Source: a virus | Strand: one strand, 5' to 3' | Virus record (IMG/VR): IMGVR_UViG_3300042938_000135 | Location: 1-37,755 of that record | Length of the DNA: 37,755 nt | Shown: positions 5,538 through 37,755 of the stretch, piece by piece | How positions within the stretch are numbered: position 1 is the first letter of the stretch | How the letters are laid out: every line of letters begins with the position of its first letter | The notes under the pieces: generated by a model | Database searches by the model: none | What the model saw: the letters and a program-made list of their open reading frames with translations, nothing else | What the model was told of the DNA's origin: nothing | Program-made: the position numbers and the translations under genes

Positions 5538-5768
5538 ATGGAAAGTAATATTATTGATGTAGAAGCTACGCCAGTTGAGACACCTCAACCAACGCAGCAG
5601 GTTCCACAAGTTAGTGGAGTCAGTGTAATCGAATACTTGTCAAACATTAGTTATGTATTGACAGGAATGGTTACAAATATTAACGAGCAAGTAACTCGTT
5701 TAATCGCAACAGGTAAACAACAGGAGAATGCAAATGGCAAAGACACGACTACCAGCAATGGTAACTGA
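5538..5768 (+). CDS. Hypothetical Thr/Gln/Pro-rich protein, 76 residues
   Basis: ATG 5538 follows AAAGGAGACACT, one of the better ribosome sites in the window. An in-frame ATG at 5472 would put the promoter-like hairpins inside the gene and is rejected. Residues 8-25 are rich in Pro, Gln and Thr (ATPVETPQPTQQVPQV). Residues 27-55 look like an amphipathic helix, and the C-terminus is Asn/Thr-rich. The last 35 bases overlap the SSB-like gene in another frame. No family is recognised. Because it is first behind motif copy B, it could be a highly expressed middle protein. Confidence 0.6.
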   Translation: MESNIIDVEATPVETPQPTQQVPQVSGVSVIEYLSNISYVLTGMVTNINEQVTRLIATGKQQENANGKDTTTSNGN

Positions 5769-6270
5769 GACACTTGAAGTCAAGTGGTCAAACTTAAATA
5801 AGCCTGATGTTAACTTTGGTGTACACTCAGCTAATCATAACATTACAGTTATGGTTACACCAACACTTCAAAAGCTTTTAACTGAGCTTACTAAGAAGTC
5901 TGGTGCTAAGAAGTTGAATGGTATGACTGAGAAGGATGATGTTAAGTATATTAAATTCAAGAGCAAGACTCATGTTGAATCAGCCGATGGTAAGTTCCCA
6001 TGCGTTGATGCTGCATCTAAGGAAACTGCTGCGGTTGCATTTGGTGGCGATAAGGTAAGACTTAAGCTGCAACCAATGGTTCTTGATCGTGATAACTCAT
6101 TAAGTCTTTATCTTAATGGCGTTCAGATTATTACAAAGGGTGAGTATAAACCATCTTCTGGTTTTGAACCAGTAGAGGGTGGCTTTGATGGCTCTAACTT
6201 TGTTGAATCTAAACCAACCGTTACTAAAGAAAAGGTTGATGAGCTTATCGAGGAAGACATTCCCTTTTAA
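5734..6270 (+). CDS. Single-stranded DNA-binding protein-like, acidic C-terminal tail
   Basis: The product is 178 residues. ATG 5734 is chosen over ATG 5728 because GGAG at 5723-5726 is seven bases before 5734 but only one before 5728. The protein is beta-rich, as expected for an OB fold. It is followed by a Gly/Ser/Pro linker and an acidic tail ending EEDIPF, nearly identical to the DDDIPF tip with which bacterial SSB recruits partner proteins. T7 gp2.5 also has an acidic tail and sits at a similar position, before its junction-processing endonuclease. No SSB sequence signature was recognised in the body, so the call rests on the tail, size and context. RusA starts on the last base of the stop codon. 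Confidence 0.68.
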   Translation: MAKTRLPAMVTETLEVKWSNLNKPDVNFGVHSANHNITVMVTPTLQKLLTELTKKSGAKKLNGMTEKDDVKYIKFKSKTHVESADGKFPCVDAASKETAAVAFGGDKVRLKLQPMVLDRDNSLSLYLNGVQIITKGEYKPSSGFEPVEGGFDGSNFVESKPTVTKEKVDELIEEDIPF

Positions 6271-6650
6271 TGGAATGGACTTTCAACATATCCCCTGTAG
6301 CTGCTAGTCGCCCTAGAGTCAGCAAGTGGGGAGCTTATTACACAGGTCCTTATAAAGAGTTTAAAGAGAAAGCTTCAGAAGAAGTTTATAGAGTGTTGGG
6401 TACAGAGCGTGAGTTGATCACCAAGCCCATCGTTGTATCTTTAGAAATGTATGTAAGACAACCTAAGAAAACAGAGTTGGAATACCCAAGAGGTGATGTC
6501 GATAATTATGTCAAGGCTGTGTTCGATGCAATGAATGGTAAACTTTGGAAAGATGATTCCCAAATCTTTGCTATGTTTGCATCTAAACAGTGGGCAGATC
6601 GCTCATCTGATGGATACTTCACACTGTCTATTAGTAATAAGATTAAGTAA
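6270..6650 (+). CDS. RusA-family Holliday junction resolvase
   Basis: This 126-residue protein matches RusA in length and motif. The metal-binding segment GDVDNYVKAVFDAMNG has Asp76 and Asp78, and WKDDSQI follows with Asp95/Asp96. N-terminal residues include PVAASRPRVSKWG, typical of the family. It should act as a dimer, cutting four-way junctions during replication and before packaging. The gene takes the place that T7 gives to gp3 endonuclease I, next to the SSB gene. Its ATG 6270 overlaps the TAA of that gene. Identification is confident from the motif. Confidence 0.93.
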   Translation: MEWTFNISPVAASRPRVSKWGAYYTGPYKEFKEKASEEVYRVLGTERELITKPIVVSLEMYVRQPKKTELEYPRGDVDNYVKAVFDAMNGKLWKDDSQIFAMFASKQWADRSSDGYFTLSISNKIK

Positions 6651-6741: not shown

Positions 6742-7380
6742 ATGAGTATTGTAGAATATGTAAATCATATGGGTTCAGATAATAGTGTTGTAGATGCAGC
6801 AAGAGTATCGTTTGATAAGGTATCGTTTGCGTATTCAGATAATCAAAATGAGAAGTTAATTAGTTATCTCGCAGAACATAATCACTGGAGTCCTTTCTCT
6901 CATTGTTTTATTTCAATGAGATTCAAGGCTCCTGTTTTTATCGCACGACAACTAGCTAAGCATCAGATAGGTTTTAGTTGGAACGAAGTATCAAGACGCT
7001 ATGTCACATCTGACATATCGTTTTGGATACCTGAGTATCTTAGACAGAACTGTGCTAATAAAAAGCAAGGCTCATCTCTTGATGAAGTTGTTGATAATAC
7101 AAAGTTAATGCGACAGTATCTAAAGTTACAATTAGATTGCAAGGCTTTGTATGAGAAGATGATTGAGTCTGATGTGTGTGGTGAGCAAGCACGAATGATC
7201 CTGCCACAGTCTATGATGACTGAGTGGATATGGTCTGGCTCATTGTATGCATGGTCACGCATGTACAAGCTGCGATCACACGATGGTGTGCAACTTGAGA
7301 CATCTTTGTATGCTAAAGAAGTAGGAAAGATTTGTAAGGAACGGTTCCCTATATGTTGGAAATATCTGGAGATTCAATAA
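6742..7380 (+). CDS. thyX: Flavin-dependent thymidylate synthase ThyX
   Basis: This 212-residue protein makes dTMP from dUMP using FAD, NADPH and methylene-tetrahydrofolate. The family signature is present at 69-87: RQLAKHQIGFSWNEVSRRY. The usual RHR-x7-S reads KHQ-x8-S here (73-75 and Ser84), a phage-type variation at flavin/dUMP-binding positions. SPFSH at 50-54 and the C-terminal EVGKICKERFP also fit the family. ATG 6742 follows TAAGGAGTAACTAAA. The gene ends on the first base of the primase-helicase ATG. Together with the ribonucleotide reductase and dNMP-kinase-like protein it forms a DNA precursor supply route. Confidence 0.93.
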   Translation: MSIVEYVNHMGSDNSVVDAARVSFDKVSFAYSDNQNEKLISYLAEHNHWSPFSHCFISMRFKAPVFIARQLAKHQIGFSWNEVSRRYVTSDISFWIPEYLRQNCANKKQGSSLDEVVDNTKLMRQYLKLQLDCKALYEKMIESDVCGEQARMILPQSMMTEWIWSGSLYAWSRMYKLRSHDGVQLETSLYAKEVGKICKERFPICWKYLEIQ

Positions 7381-9119
7381 TGACAACTGGTATTAAGAAG
7401 CAATGTCCTAAGTGTGCTTCTGTTGGCAATGACAACAAGTGTAATAACTTTGTTGAGTATGATGATCATTGGTATTGCTTTGCATGTAAACACTACGAGA
7501 AAAAAGGAGGTCATACTGTGACCGAAAGAACTGAAGAGATTAAAGATGCTGGCGTACTGAAACCATCTAAGGGTACTATCATTGGATTACAACACCGTAA
7601 CATTGATCAGAAGACTTGCCGTTTGTATGGCTATGAGTCTGCTATCATCAACGGTAAAGAAGTAGAGATTGCTAATTACTATAACGGTACTGAACTTGTT
7701 GCTCAACATCTCCGAGGTCCTGATAAACAGTTCTTCTGGAAGGGTGATACAAAGAAGCTTGAGTTGTATGGTCAACACTTGTGGCGTACAGGTGGTGGTA
7801 AGCGTGTCATCATTACTGAGGGTGAGATTGATTGCATGACTGTGAACCAACTATTAGGTGGCACATGGGCAGTAGTTAGCTTGCCTAATGGTGCATCATC
7901 CGCTGTCAAATCTATCAAAGAGAACCTTGAGTTTGTTTGCTCATACCAAGAAGTTGTACTGTGCTTTGATAACGATACCCCAGGTCGTGATGCTGCTAAG
8001 GCTGTTGCTGATATCCTACCTCCTGGAAAATGTAAGATCGCTAAGCTTCCATACAAGGATGCTAATGAATGTCTTATGAATGCACAGGGCAAGGCTGTTG
8101 TCTCCGCTATATGGGAAGCACAACAGTATTCACCTGACGAGATTTTACATATCTCATCTATTGTCCGTGACTCAACTGATATCTCTAACACTAAGGTATA
8201 CCCATTCCCATTTGATACGCTATCAGAATACTTGATCGGTCAGCGTGGTGGTGAGATTACCTTGTGGGCTTCTGGTACTGGCTCTGGCAAGTCTACGATC
8301 CTCCGTGAGTTGATCTTGAATCATCTTGAGGAAGGAAGATCAGTCGGTGCGATCATGCTTGAGGAGTCACCACAGGAGACTATGGATGACATGATCAGTC
8401 TGATCTTGAACAAGCCTGTCCGTGCTATCATGGCTGGCAAGATGATGAACGATCTTCGTACTAAATTAGGTAAGCCTAGAATTAATATGGATTTTGTAAA
8501 TGACTTTACCAACGAAGAGTATGCACAAGCTAGACAAAAGTTAGCTGAGACTTCCTTATATGTGTACGACCATCTTGGTAATAACGCAATGAGTAATCTC
8601 TTAGCACGAATGGAATTCATGGCTGTGTCATTAAAGGTAGATGTGATTGTACTTGATCACATTACTGCTGCCGCTGCTGGCTTGCTTGGTATCACCAACA
8701 AGGATGTGGATGGTGGTAACTCAGAGCGTATCATCATTGATACACTTATGAAAGAACTACGAGCCATCTCTGTTCGCACTGGTGTGCATGTTGATATCGT
8801 ATCACAACTTAAGAAGACTGACAAAGCCTTTGAAGAGGGTGATCGTATCACGCTGCAAGATCTTAGAGGATCTGGTGCGTTATCTTCAGTACCTAATACT
8901 GTTGTTGCTCTTGAACGAGACCGACAGAACTCAGATGATACTGTTGCCAATACAACAATCATCCGTGTACTCAAGAATAGATTGACTGGTCGTGCTGGTA
9001 TTGCTACTGCACTATACTATGATCGTAAGAATGGTAGACTCAAGGAGATTGGGTTTGCTATGGATGATGGTGGTTCTGTAGTCTTTAACAATGAGGATAC
9101 AAATGCACAAGAAGTTTAA
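7380..9119 (+). CDS. Bifunctional DNA primase-helicase (T7 gp4-like)
   Basis: The product is 579 residues from ATG 7380, which has GGAGA upstream and overlaps the thyX stop. A start at 7353 lies inside thyX and lacks a site. A zinc ribbon has Cys9, Cys12, Cys33 and Cys36. The TOPRIM primase core follows, with TEGE (Glu147) and FDND (Asp197, Asp199). The DnaB-type helicase domain has Walker A GTGSGKST (299-306), Walker B VIVLDH, then VSQLKK and LRGSGALSS. The length is near that of T7 gp4 (566). It should unwind the fork and prime the lagging strand for the DNA polymerase encoded two genes later. All main catalytic motifs are intact. Confidence 0.97.
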   Translation: MTTGIKKQCPKCASVGNDNKCNNFVEYDDHWYCFACKHYEKKGGHTVTERTEEIKDAGVLKPSKGTIIGLQHRNIDQKTCRLYGYESAIINGKEVEIANYYNGTELVAQHLRGPDKQFFWKGDTKKLELYGQHLWRTGGGKRVIITEGEIDCMTVNQLLGGTWAVVSLPNGASSAVKSIKENLEFVCSYQEVVLCFDNDTPGRDAAKAVADILPPGKCKIAKLPYKDANECLMNAQGKAVVSAIWEAQQYSPDEILHISSIVRDSTDISNTKVYPFPFDTLSEYLIGQRGGEITLWASGTGSGKSTILRELILNHLEEGRSVGAIMLEESPQETMDDMISLILNKPVRAIMAGKMMNDLRTKLGKPRINMDFVNDFTNEEYAQARQKLAETSLYVYDHLGNNAMSNLLARMEFMAVSLKVDVIVLDHITAAAAGLLGITNKDVDGGNSERIIIDTLMKELRAISVRTGVHVDIVSQLKKTDKAFEEGDRITLQDLRGSGALSSVPNTVVALERDRQNSDDTVANTTIIRVLKNRLTGRAGIATALYYDRKNGRLKEIGFAMDDGGSVVFNNEDTNAQEV

Positions 9120-9300
9120 TCATATTGTTACACTAACTTTTAATATCTTAACTAACTCAGAAGATCTTGAGGGTATGACTAGGATGGAATTGGTTAATGC
9201 TTTGAATAGAGTATACGATCCCAAGTGGATACTTGAAGACGGTGGTAAAAAGTTTATTGAGAAGTTAGCTATACAAGAAACAATTGAAATTAATAAATAG
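9103..9300 (+). CDS. Hypothetical protein, 65 residues
   Basis: ATG 9103 has GAGG seven bases upstream and overlaps the helicase 3' end by 17 bases. ATG 9091 in the same frame is less well placed. The protein is helical: a hydrophobic start (FNHIVTLTFNIL) is followed by a segment containing MTRMELVNALNRVYD and a charged C-terminus. It sits between helicase and DNA polymerase genes and so is likely co-expressed with the replisome. No family is recognised. Confidence 0.6.
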   Translation: MHKKFNHIVTLTFNILTNSEDLEGMTRMELVNALNRVYDPKWILEDGGKKFIEKLAIQETIEINK

Positions 9301-9308
9301 GAGTCTAT

Positions 9309-11018
9309 ATGAAACTTGTTCTAGATGTTGAGTGCGATTCACTCAGTGAGATTTCTATTAGTGGTGATAAAATTATTAGAGAAGCCAAGACTATTTGGTG
9401 TGCTGTTGCGTATGATATTGATACAGAGAAAGTATATAGGTTTACTTCAGAGAATATGCATGAGTTACCTGATCTAATGGACAAGGCTGACCTGCTGATA
9501 GGACACAACATCTTATTTGATCTTGCTATTATTGATAGACTACTTCGCAAAACTAAGTGTCCTAACTATCGAGACAGCTTGATCATCAGTAGGCTAATGC
9601 ATCCTGATGTGAACGAGCATCCTCTTGGTGGCAACAGCTTGGAGATGTGGGGCAAGTTCCTTAAGAATCCTAAGATTGAATACAAGGGTGGGTGGGATCA
9701 TTACTCACAAGAGATGCTCACTTACTGTGAACAAGATGTCATGCTTAGTGCTGCTGTTTACAAGTATCAACTAGCGTGGTGTGCTGCACATGAGAACATC
9801 TTACCACCTGCTGTCATTAAACTAGAACACTTGGTATCAAAGATACTTGCTGAGCAAACTGATAATGGATTTAACTATGACTATCACAATGGAGATATTT
9901 TATATGGCACATTGCTATTACAAAAAGTTAGTATTGAAGATGAGATGCGTGTTGTGTTCCCTGATATCGTGCATGAGCGGGTGTCAGAAAAGACGGGCAA
10001 ACCACTAAAGACTAAGGTCGAGATCTTTAACCCAGGATCACGCACACAGATTGCTAGTAGACTAAAAGATAAATATAATTGGACACCACCCACAACCGAT
10101 AAGGGTAACCCAAAGGTTGATGAGGCTGTGCTTGCTGATCTAAACTATCCCGAAGCAAAGAAGTTAGTAGAGTATTTCAACTACATAAAACTTATGGGCA
10201 TGGTTCTTGATTGGAATACAAGAGCCAACCTAACTAGGGATGGGCATATACATGGATCAGTGAACGCACAAGGTGCGGCGACTGGTAGATGTACACACTC
10301 CCAACCTAACATGGCACAGGTAAGCAAGGATAAAGAAGCAAGAAAGTTATGGATACCTGATACTAATTGTGTGCTTGTTGGTGCTGATCTCAAGGGATTG
10401 GAACTAAGAATGCTTGCACACTTCATGGCTAAGTATGATGGTGGTAAGTATGGTGATAAGATCCTAACGGATGACATTCATACATACAATCAGAAGGCTG
10501 CTGGTTTACCTGATAGAGACGCAGCTAAGACATTCATCTATGCATACTGCTACGGTGCGGGTGATAAGAAGCTAGGTACAATCGTTGGTGGCACTAGTGC
10601 TGCTGGCAAAACAATACGCACGAAGTTTCAAAAAGAAATTCCTGCATTAGAAAAGGTTCATCAAGATGTTAAGTTCTCTGTTGCTAAGACTAAGGGTGTT
10701 AAGTTATTGGATGGAAGGATTGTTCCTGTACGCTCTGAACACGCCGCTCTTAATACATTGTTACAAGGATCTGGGGCAGTACTATCTAAGTTATGGATGT
10801 GCATTGCAAACAGGAACCTAAAGAAAACATATGGTACACTTGTTAAACAAGTGGCATACATTCATGATGAATTACAATTCACTTGTCCACCTGATATTGC
10901 AGACGCTGTTGGTAAGATTATTACCGAGGCTGCTACTGATGCTGGCGTAAGGTTGGGGCTAAAGATAAGGGTCGATGCGGGCTATTCCGTAGGTAAGAAC
11001 TGGAGTGAAACACATTGA
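9309..11018 (+). CDS. Family A DNA polymerase with 3'-5' exonuclease (T7 gp5-like)
   Basis: This 569-residue replicative polymerase has exonuclease motifs DVECD (Asp6, Glu8), NILFD (Asp71) and YCEQD (Tyr139, Asp143). Polymerase motif A is GADLKGLELR (Asp360), motif B is RDAAKTFIYAYCYGAG (Lys407, Tyr411), and motif C is IHDELQ (His519, Asp520). It parallels T7 gp5 closely but is about 135 residues shorter. Between roughly 213 and 238 only a short loop stands where T7 has its 76-residue thioredoxin-binding insertion, so thioredoxin is unlikely to be the processivity factor. GGAG precedes ATG 9309. Motif copy D lies inside the last 70 bases. The stop overlaps the next gene's TTG start. Confidence 0.97.
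   Translation: MKLVLDVECDSLSEISISGDKIIREAKTIWCAVAYDIDTEKVYRFTSENMHELPDLMDKADLLIGHNILFDLAIIDRLLRKTKCPNYRDSLIISRLMHPDVNEHPLGGNSLEMWGKFLKNPKIEYKGGWDHYSQEMLTYCEQDVMLSAAVYKYQLAWCAAHENILPPAVIKLEHLVSKILAEQTDNGFNYDYHNGDILYGTLLLQKVSIEDEMRVVFPDIVHERVSEKTGKPLKTKVEIFNPGSRTQIASRLKDKYNWTPPTTDKGNPKVDEAVLADLNYPEAKKLVEYFNYIKLMGMVLDWNTRANLTRDGHIHGSVNAQGAATGRCTHSQPNMAQVSKDKEARKLWIPDTNCVLVGADLKGLELRMLAHFMAKYDGGKYGDKILTDDIHTYNQKAAGLPDRDAAKTFIYAYCYGAGDKKLGTIVGGTSAAGKTIRTKFQKEIPALEKVHQDVKFSVAKTKGVKLLDGRIVPVRSEHAALNTLLQGSGAVLSKLWMCIANRNLKKTYGTLVKQVAYIHDELQFTCPPDIADAVGKIITEAATDAGVRLGLKIRVDAGYSVGKNWSETH
10952..10967 (+). promoter_or_regulatory. Copy D of the repeated motif, inside the DNA polymerase gene
   Basis: GTTGGGGCTAAAGATA matches all fixed positions of the motif. 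It encodes LGLKI near the C-terminus of the polymerase and lacks the flanking CCCC arm. It is 63 bases upstream of the gene at 11015, a plausible distance for a promoter serving the next three genes. The coding constraint means chance cannot be wholly excluded for this copy. Confidence 0.42.
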
Positions 11019-36578: not shown

Positions 36579-36800
36579 ATGAACTATGCTAAACAAATCC
36601 AAGCCTTAAACAACGGCTTAATCAAACAACTGTTATCAGACCTTGGTGATCCAACTAAGTGTACTCCAGGATTATACCTTGTTATTCGTGGTATGATCAC
36701 AGACAACAGGGATGTTTTAGATAACATTCCTAATTCAGCTCTAGATGAACTAGAGGCTAAGTTGGCAACTAAGGCTCCGTTTAAATTTAAGGTGGGATAA
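36579..36800 (+). CDS. Terminase small subunit (T7 gp18-like)
   Basis: The product is 73 residues from ATG 36579, three bases after the previous stop, with CTCGGAAAGTAATAC upstream. It is helical, with AKQIQALNNGLIKQLLSDLG and then a segment ending DELEAKLATKAPFKFKVG. Its size (T7 gp18 is 89), the position directly before the large terminase and the TAATG overlap with it support a small terminase that recognises concatemer DNA. Sequence motifs alone would not identify it. Confidence 0.75.
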   Translation: MNYAKQIQALNNGLIKQLLSDLGDPTKCTPGLYLVIRGMITDNRDVLDNIPNSALDELEAKLATKAPFKFKVG

Positions 36801-37755
36801 TGAATGTACCTAAAGAGATGGTTGATGATTTCCGTAATCATCTATGGGCTTGCTTCAAGTACTTAGGAATCGGGGAACCGACTCCATTACAGTACGCTAT
36901 GGCAGAAGCCATGCAGAACGGTCCTAAGGACTTCCAGATGCAAGCAGGGCGTGGAGCTGGCAAGAGCGTAATCAACGCTTGCTTCGCATCGTGGCGGCTT
37001 CTAATGGATGCTAATAAGACTATCATGGTCTTGTCAGCAACCTCTGGTAGAGCCATCTCTTTCATTGCACAGGTTAGAAAGATAATTGATGTGGTTCCTT
37101 ATTGTGAACACCTTAAGCCTAAGGAACACGATAAGGACAATGCATTCGGTTTCAATGTTGGATGCAAGACTACCTACGGACAAGATCTGTCCTGCTATGC
37201 CAAAGGTATAACAGGACAGATCACAGGTAGCCATGCCGATGATATCATAGTGGATGATATTGAGATCGAGAAGAACTCAGATACTCCTTATGCTAGAGAG
37301 CGGCTACTCAATAAGATAGCCGAACTAGAGCAGATTAGAAACAATACAACAGATGGGTGCATCCGTATCTTGGGTACATTCCAATCGACTGACAGCGTGT
37401 ATCTTAAGCTATCTAACAGTTACCCTATTATTAAGTTCCCAGCTATTATGCCAAACCCTGATATTGCTGGAGAAATAGATTACTGTTCCGATTATATCTT
37501 AAAGTTGGGGCTAGAGATAGGAGACAGTACGCAGCCTGAGCGGTTCCCTTTAGATGTCCTCAAGCAAAGGGAAGCTAAGATTGGCTTAAAGTTATTCTCA
37601 CTACATTACAAATTAGATCCATCCCTTAGCGATAGATCTAAGTATCCCCTTAAGTTAGAAGATTTAATTGTTATTGATGCTAGTCCTGAGCTGTTCCCTG
37701 AAAAGATTACTTGGGAGAAGAAGAACCACAACAAGACTATTGAGTCGTTTGGTAT
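36800..37755 (+). CDS. Terminase large subunit (T7 gp19-like), 5' part, cut by window end
   Basis: ATG 36800 overlaps the small terminase stop. The frame stays open for 318 codons to the window end. T7 gp19 has 586 residues, so roughly half is missing. The packaging ATPase is clear: Walker A GRGAGKS at 50-56 and Walker B DDIIVDDIEIEKNSDT at about 147-162, closely like T7. A segment with RILGTFQSTDSVYLKL matches the coupling region. The nuclease domain lies beyond the window. The protein drives DNA into the prohead and cuts concatemers. Motif copy E is inside the gene at 37504. Confidence 0.95.
   Translation, partial: MNVPKEMVDDFRNHLWACFKYLGIGEPTPLQYAMAEAMQNGPKDFQMQAGRGAGKSVINACFASWRLLMDANKTIMVLSATSGRAISFIAQVRKIIDVVPYCEHLKPKEHDKDNAFGFNVGCKTTYGQDLSCYAKGITGQITGSHADDIIVDDIEIEKNSDTPYARERLLNKIAELEQIRNNTTDGCIRILGTFQSTDSVYLKLSNSYPIIKFPAIMPNPDIAGEIDYCSDYILKLGLEIGDSTQPERFPLDVLKQREAKIGLKLFSLHYKLDPSLSDRSKYPLKLEDLIVIDASPELFPEKITWEKKNHNKTIESFG
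37504..37519 (+). promoter_or_regulatory. Copy E of the repeated motif, inside the large terminase gene
   Basis: GTTGGGGCTAGAGATA matches every fixed position. Two bases later the likeness to copy A continues as GACAGTA. The coding reads LGLEI. The CCC arm of the intergenic hairpins is absent. In T7 a promoter (phi-OR region) also lies around the end of gene 19, so a promoter firing into genes past the window end is plausible but not shown. Confidence 0.45.

Follow-up and report, generated by a model that had tools for sequence, protein, structure and literature searches.

The window (the whole 37,755-nucleotide stretch of IMG/VR virus record IMGVR_UViG_3300042938_000135 that was analysed) encodes a DNA polymerase of the T7 gp5 type which, to judge from alignments and a structural model, lacks the thioredoxin-binding domain (TBD) of the T7 enzyme. 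At the corresponding site the polymerase is predicted to carry a short, basic and highly conserved β-hairpin. By fold and family it is an ordinary T7 gp5-type enzyme. The open reading frame (ORF) at 9309-11018, whose coordinates and length of 569 residues agree with those of an earlier prediction made from the sequence alone, matches Pfam DNA_pol_A (PF00476; 4.4e-44) and PHROG 17 (3.8e-113), and T7 gp5 is its top PDB sequence match. The NCBIfam DpoZ model scores 56.2 bits, against a cut-off of 500. An AlphaFold2 model was built from a 53-sequence alignment without templates (mean predicted local distance difference test score, pLDDT, 94.4; predicted template-modelling score, pTM, 0.90). Its top solved fold is again T7 gp5 (1sl1; Z 38.9 over 546 residues, 34% identity, root-mean-square deviation 2.8; VIA-align), Pol I fragments reaching a Z of about 34; Foldseek agrees with this ranking and places 2ajq first. 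As the original prediction had claimed, the motifs match those of T7 gp5: all the residues compared align one to one, both in the exonuclease (D6/E8/D71/Y139/D143 with T7 D5/E7/D65/Y170/D174) and in the polymerase part (D360/R403/K407/Y411/D520/E521 with T7 D475/R518/K522/Y526/D654/E655). The O-helix tyrosine Y411, equivalent to T7 Y526, makes it a Tyr762-type enzyme.

The TBD of T7 gp5 comprises residues 258-333 (PMC3556154; literature cited by PMC number, here and below, is used for the passages concerned only). Residues F217 and F240 of the window polymerase align with T7 F261 and F334, and the TBD site is reduced to about residues 214-239, i.e., 26 residues compared to 76 in T7, with two runs of gaps (17 + 33) that leave a net 50 residues missing. 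The AlphaFold model shows an ordered β-hairpin at this site (strands 220-225 and 232-238, pLDDT blocks of 92-93), situated between helices 192-216 and 245-256. Since the gap is reproduced in three separate alignments and the modelled hairpin is ordered, the gap is not an accident of alignment. The absence of the insertion, as originally proposed, is thus upheld both by the alignments and by the structure prediction that had been suggested as a check. The description of the site as “only a short loop” holds for its shortness but not for its nature, as the segment forms an ordered and conserved hairpin that is longer than its equivalent in Pol I. Indeed, the loop site measures 6 residues in E. 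coli Pol I and 22 in the window polymerase, so that the latter also carries an insertion, and a conserved one.

The missing TBD accounts for 50 of the 135 residues by which T7 gp5 exceeds the window polymerase in length; further stretches present only in T7 are found in the exonuclease part (13, 17 and 19 residues) and in the polymerase part (14 and 8 residues). A thioredoxin-binding loop elsewhere in the protein, which would have overturned the original claim, was also looked for: no displaced TBD was found in the window polymerase, and the largest stretch that it possesses relative to T7 is 10 residues long, following position 12. This argues against continued binding of thioredoxin at a site other than the TBD, a reading for which no supporting point was found and which we consider extremely improbable. 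As there is no TBD, thioredoxin dependence of the T7 type is not to be expected.

The hairpin itself is rich in invariant or near-invariant residues, namely R224, S226, K228, T229, G230, K231, L233, K234 and K236. Its conservation was assessed in a census of 88 polymerases, consisting of the window, 78 IMG/VR loci, 5 other loci and 4 named phages, in which the loop was counted between the two anchor phenylalanines. The IMG/VR loci are taken from 600 pattern matches to a window-headed alignment, of which the best 80 were used (two of these being left out); the sample was thus picked by similarity to the window, and its counts are not population frequencies. Among the 53 polymerases with a 22-residue loop, K228 is present in all, S226, T229 and K234 each in 52, and G230 and K231 each in 49. 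This class was chosen by loop length and not by residue, and the conservation is therefore not forced. When nine-residue segments were ranked by conservation in 28 non-redundant sequences (<80% identity), residues 226-234 came 15th of 448, with a majority fraction of 0.877 versus 0.604 overall. The conservation of the hairpin is thus roughly on a par with that of the active-site motifs.

These features suggest a thioredoxin-independent replicase in which the basic hairpin grips the duplex and long runs are provided by the ring helicase and the single-stranded DNA-binding protein (SSB), a reading that we consider evenly balanced between right and wrong. Residues R224, K228, K231, K234 and K236 would themselves grip the backbone of the nascent duplex; the grip would be permanent and small in scale, whereas the T7 TBD grips only once thioredoxin has ordered it. 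The polymerase would achieve long runs by moving together with the ring helicase-primase and SSB that the phage itself encodes, with no dedicated small factor, and the contact between helicase and polymerase in the window lineage would differ from the acidic-tail contact of T7. The duplex-gripping role is suggested by the place, charge and conservation of the hairpin. In T7, molecular dynamics indicated that a looped-back segment of the TBD (residues 272-290) carries three basic residues, K281, K285 and R288, that contact the DNA backbone in the thioredoxin-bound state (PMC5984650). Tyr762-type PolA enzymes from viromes, encoded beside gp4 helicases, extended primers on M13 with no strand displacement (PMC9069017). 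Their behaviour fits the proposed mechanism, although the paper never mentions thioredoxin and does not tell the TBD status of these enzymes.

Several observations weigh against a duplex-gripping hairpin. T7 residues 278-285 read RTGKPLPK and the window counterpart KTGKPLK, but the resemblance between RTGKPL and the hairpin tip lacks significance: of 500 shuffles, 28 scored at or above T7, and the same test gave 29 for PhiV-1, 55 for VP4 and 66 for KNP (500 shuffles each). The likeness remains a lead. The conserved hairpin could equally bind a protein. The T7 parental-DNA cleft (K545/K549/K553) keeps a single lysine in the window polymerase (K434), and consequently less positive charge than in T7. 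The literature yielded no measurement of processivity for a close relative. Finally, a factor could be encoded outside the window record, which is linear and likely to be truncated.

In addition to the TBD, a second T7 element is missing. Between residues 458 and 459 of the window polymerase, T7 has 14 residues that hold the W579 β-hairpin and reach into the segment VKWKRR (586-591). We take the front basic patch of T7 to be K587/K589/R590/R591, which the sequence at 586-591 fits. Deletion of the W579 loop in T7 diminished strand displacement and abolished synergistic binding of gp4 (PMC8835902), and the acidic tail of gp4 binds both the front basic patch and the patch of the TBD, increasing the processivity of the replisome from 5 to 17 kb (PMC5997990). 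The front 14-residue element is present in only 4 of 98 polymerases, all four from Studiervirinae. At this site RHEph21 carries an unlike insertion of 32 residues, and E. coli Pol I has 12 additional residues in a doubtful alignment.

The absence of both T7 stabilising elements would also suit a polymerase of low processivity that exchanges rapidly at the fork, the ring helicase setting the pace and neither grip nor factor being needed; polymerases have been reported to exchange autonomously while replication proceeds (PMC11193749). Such a scheme leaves the conservation of a surface hairpin at the level of the active site unexplained, and we regard it as improbable.

The window helicase ends in EDTNAQEV and lacks the terminal Phe of the T7 type (last 19 codons, 9060-9116). 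Helicase tails ending in Phe or Tyr number 0 of 20 distinct tails in the window clade, 37 of 41 in other relatives, 2 of 2 in Studiervirinae and 1 of 16 in a further clade; those of the window clade are still mildly acidic (mean net charge -3.9 over 20 residues). The acidic tail of the window SSB, on the other hand, ends in EEDIPF (codons 6250-6267), and a terminal Phe or Tyr occurs in 6 of 6 distinct SSB tails of the window clade, 25 of 27 in other relatives and 2 of 2 in Studiervirinae. These tail counts are descriptive and do not amount to a test of association, as related sequences are not independent. Judged by sequence, the window lineage has altered or lost the T7 helicase tail as well as the two places where that tail is reported to land. 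In LUZ100, CRP-125 and HTVC120P the Phe-ended helicase tail is kept and the landing places are gone, which argues that the tail there has another partner.

The main rival to duplex gripping is that the hairpin serves as a docking site for an acidic tail, most likely the EEDIPF of the SSB, and that such docking is ancestral to the tail docking of T7, thioredoxin having been added later. The T7 SSB C-terminal tail contacts the TBD (PMC7699545) and the gp4 tail binds its basic patch (PMC5997990), and the window clade combines Phe- or Tyr-ended SSB tails with helicases that never end so. HTVC120P-like phages, however, share the 22-residue hairpin, yet their helicase is also Phe-tailed; the hairpin is also present in a clade from which no SSB of the gp2.5 type was recovered and whose helicases mostly end in Leu, so that no single tail tracks the hairpin. 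We consider docking of the SSB tail unlikely. The Leu-ending clade comprises loci L048, L059, L061, L068, L075, L077, L078, L080, L083, L086, L095, L098, L101, L103, L104 and L110; its polymerase hairpin is always 22-23 residues long, and no gp2.5-like SSB was recovered near these loci. As a separate observation, the SSB tails of relatives end in DDDIPF or DEDLPF. The bacterial SSB C-terminal tail is DDDIPF, which the EEDIPF of the window SSB closely resembles; the phage tail might recruit host SSB-binding proteins.

Table 1. Features of the window referred to in the text.
Feature	Position	Strand	Basis
Family A DNA polymerase of the T7 gp5 type, with 3'-5' exonuclease and without TBD (569 residues)	9309..11018	+	Pfam, PHROG, PDB, fold
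Predicted basic β-hairpin of the thumb, at the T7 TBD site	9957..10028 (codons 217-240)	+	AlphaFold strands, residue conservation
Site without the T7 14-residue fork-stacking β-hairpin (W579) and front basic patch	10680..10685 (codons 458/459)	+	Alignment
T7 gp4-type primase-helicase (588 residues as listed)	7353..9119	+	Pfam Toprim/DnaB_C/Helic-prim_T7_N
gp2.5-like SSB (180 residues)	5728..6270	+	PHROG 112 (1.4e-08); no Pfam match
69/65-residue ORF (9103 in the original prediction)	9091..9300	+	Homologues in siblings L001-L003 only
157-residue ORF overlapping the polymerase stop codon	11015..11488	+	Matches in 40 loci; weak Foldseek matches

The original prediction held that processivity must come from another factor, perhaps the 65-residue ORF upstream of the polymerase gene. 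Such a necessity does not follow: the replicative polymerases of phi29 and of yeast mitochondria are intrinsically processive (PMC7699545), and coupling to a helicase is another known route. The 65-residue ORF has no Pfam, PHROG or NCBIfam match, and its homologues are restricted to L001-L003, near-identical siblings whose polymerases are 98-100% identical to that of the window (L028 and L033, which also match, duplicate the window and the L001 contig, respectively). The primase stop codon is immediately followed by the polymerase gene in L037, L042 and L043, and primase and polymerase genes overlap in L044. In seven relatives of about 69% identity (L007, L008, L010, L012, L014, L017 and L024, L012 being truncated at the 5' end), the interval is occupied by purA-like and GMP-reductase-like genes. 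None of the polymerases encoded at these loci has a TBD, and a thioredoxin-replacing factor should therefore have been kept there. The 65-residue ORF is accordingly rejected as the source of processivity.

The 157-residue ORF downstream, also considered as a factor, adjoins the polymerase in 27 of the 27 related loci examined, with matches in 40 loci in all. It evolves rapidly (about 25-49% identity outside the siblings), and its few invariant residues, as judged from 21 sequences, include H33 on strand 33-39 and C117 on helix 117-128. In the permuted papain-like fold, a conserved His on a strand precedes a conserved Cys at the start of a helix. Foldseek searches with its model (pLDDT 78.9) gave as best match the cysteine peptidase 3kw0 (E 0.025, none at E <= 0.001), followed by the weaker PPPDE1, a deSUMOylase (DUF862), and YiiX. 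The ORF product thus probably adopts a permuted papain-like cysteine-peptidase fold (YiiX/LRAT-like), as far as its model allows, and was rejected both as a processivity factor and as a thioredoxin-like fold. No copy was found in three phages whose polymerases are also devoid of a TBD, namely CRP-125, HTVC120P and LUZ100. A phage-encoded factor, in the form of either ORF, is highly improbable in our estimation.

A host factor other than thioredoxin, e.g., the sliding clamp, could be recruited instead, and neither a phage clamp nor a phage thioredoxin was found: thioredoxin (PF00085) and β-clamp (PF02768) genes were absent from 15 related records, which may be fragments (positive controls recovered them in 13 and 11 of 14 genomes, respectively), PF00085 had no match in the window, and neither protein was among the window ORFs scanned with Pfam. 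Clamp-binding motifs are of the type QLxLF. The window polymerase lacks such a motif, and the only candidate, QDVML at position 142, is chance-like and lies within an exonuclease motif. We hold recruitment of a host factor to be quite improbable.

The absence of the TBD does not single out this phage and is a widespread condition: most of the relatives compared lack the domain, including LUZ100, HTVC011P and CRP-125. Among the 88 polymerases of the census, the loop is 15 residues long in 11, 22 in 53, 23 in one, 33-34 in 15, 39 in one, 47 in two, 58 in three, 61 in one and 72 in one. The last of these is T7, the only member with at least 70 residues. In additional named proteins the loop comprises 72 residues (PhiV-1 and KNP), 63 (VP4), 62 (BB8), 66 (Lo5R7ANS), 95 (K1-5), 47 (PaP3-like), 34 (HTVC011P) and 33 (RHEph21). 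The TBD of T7 itself was matched in 1205 of 50,697 phage records (E <= 0.01), most of them phages of Klebsiella, Escherichia, Pseudomonas and Salmonella.

Trees were constructed with the loop removed, using FastTree (95 taxa) and IQ-TREE (60 taxa, LG+G4). Both group T7, PhiV-1, VP4 and KNP, next to which stands BB8 (FastTree 0.91, IQ-TREE bootstrap 84), followed by the 22-residue group of L067 (0.974 and 78, respectively). The backbones disagree, since the window clade and the L050/L079 group are joined in one tree (bootstrap 100) and not in the other. Fitch reconstruction gives 17 changes of loop class on each tree, with an ambiguous state at the root. The T7-type TBD falls within one clade of this sample. 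The short loop was also considered as a decayed TBD, for which the Fitch result likewise gives no direction; this reading is not favoured, as the loop has a strongly conserved tip and recurs in several branches. Comparison of the 33-34-residue class with T7-type TBDs gave mixed results (shuffles at or above the score, of 500: T7 0, PhiV-1 7, VP4 55, KNP 148, BB8 0), and homology between the two is only a lead.

Among the polymerases compared, the combination of TBD and front hairpin is seen only in Studiervirinae, and most of the others must therefore run another way. The window system shares with T7 gp5/thioredoxin a family A replicase with 3'-5' exonuclease, whose gene lies close to those of a gp4-type primase-helicase and a gp2.5-type SSB. 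On sequence grounds it departs from the thioredoxin-dependent T7 type in the TBD, the W579/front-basic-patch hairpin and the Phe-ended helicase tail, and conforms to it in the SSB tail. The best named matches of the window polymerase (34.8-39.1% identity) are from marine and other non-Studiervirinae Autographiviridae. HTVC120P, HTVC011P, CRP-125, LUZ100, RHEph21, S-CBP4 and P-SSP10 of this group are likewise without a T7-type TBD, and in most of them the loop is longer and built differently: HTVC120P belongs to the 22-residue class, like the window, and the remainder to the 33-34 class (S-CBP4 and P-SSP10 as judged by eye). HTVC120P, CRP-125 and LUZ100 differ from the window, moreover, in their Phe-ended helicase tail.

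Like the window polymerase, the Pol I large fragments (Klenow, Bst and Taq) have the same fold and no TBD, with the far shorter E. coli loop given above. Pol I works in repair and on Okazaki fragments and is not a gp4-coupled replicase. The T7-like family A polymerase gp123 of phiCbK is the opposite case, with a TBD that is 11 residues longer than that of T7 (PMC3556154). The plant organellar polymerases (AtPolI) are also replicases of family A; their thumb insertions have been proposed to contact DNA or a factor, and the enzymes of rice and a red alga incorporate near 1000 nucleotides per binding event (PMC7699545); they differ in being eukaryotic, in the insertions themselves and in lesion bypass. 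In the open-licence literature, most subscription papers lying outside the search, we found no statement that T7-like polymerases outside Studiervirinae lack the TBD; T7-like use of thioredoxin has been assumed for marine phages (PMC9860041; PMC4961962).

A broader proposal is that the hairpin SEKTGKxLKDK represents a built-in, thioredoxin-free clamp widespread in T7-like phages, and that the TBD is a late expansion at the same site which requires a host protein and arose with the front hairpin, giving a tail-coupled replisome. The window lineage would then represent a second mode of helicase-polymerase coupling without acidic-tail docking. We offer this as speculation that is rather unlikely to hold as a whole. 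The conserved hairpin and the missing Phe tail provide two concrete sites for mutation, and a small, thioredoxin-free Tyr-type polymerase may be of practical use as an enzyme.

Some further observations concern the polymerase genes of relatives and the remainder of the window. In S-CBP4 (L116, 289-2045) and P-SSP10 (L113, 357-2167), the polymerase lies in two overlapping frames, the exonuclease part followed by the polymerase part, with a -1 frame change at the same place; the polymerase is unannotated in both records, and in DSL-LC07 it is annotated as two genes. A programmed frameshift, a split gene and a sequencing error are alternatives for the split cyanopodovirus polymerase. The window is probably a truncated genome: in its terminal part (36579-37755) the last recognisable gene encodes a small DNA_Packaging_2 protein, and among the ORFs scanned with Pfam none matched a large terminase. 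A RusA-type resolvase is encoded at 6270-6650, where T7-like phages such as CRP-125 and LUZ100 have endonuclease I, and no T7-type lysozyme gene was seen beside it.

The purA-like and GMP reductase genes between primase and polymerase (e.g., L014:3892-5987) are shared by the seven relatives mentioned above, in L012 only partly. The GMP reductase scores 517 bits with NCBIfam (cut-off 397), and the adenylosuccinate synthetase-like gene falls under every curated NCBIfam cut-off, including that of PurZ. A link of the purA-like gene of the relatives to a Z-genome (2-aminoadenine) is not supported: PurZ scores 103.8 bits, where the cut-off is 300, and in the PDB the gene product is matched best by ordinary adenylosuccinate synthetases, PurZ (7odx) ranking well below. 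Together with host PurB, the two enzymes would convert GMP to AMP.

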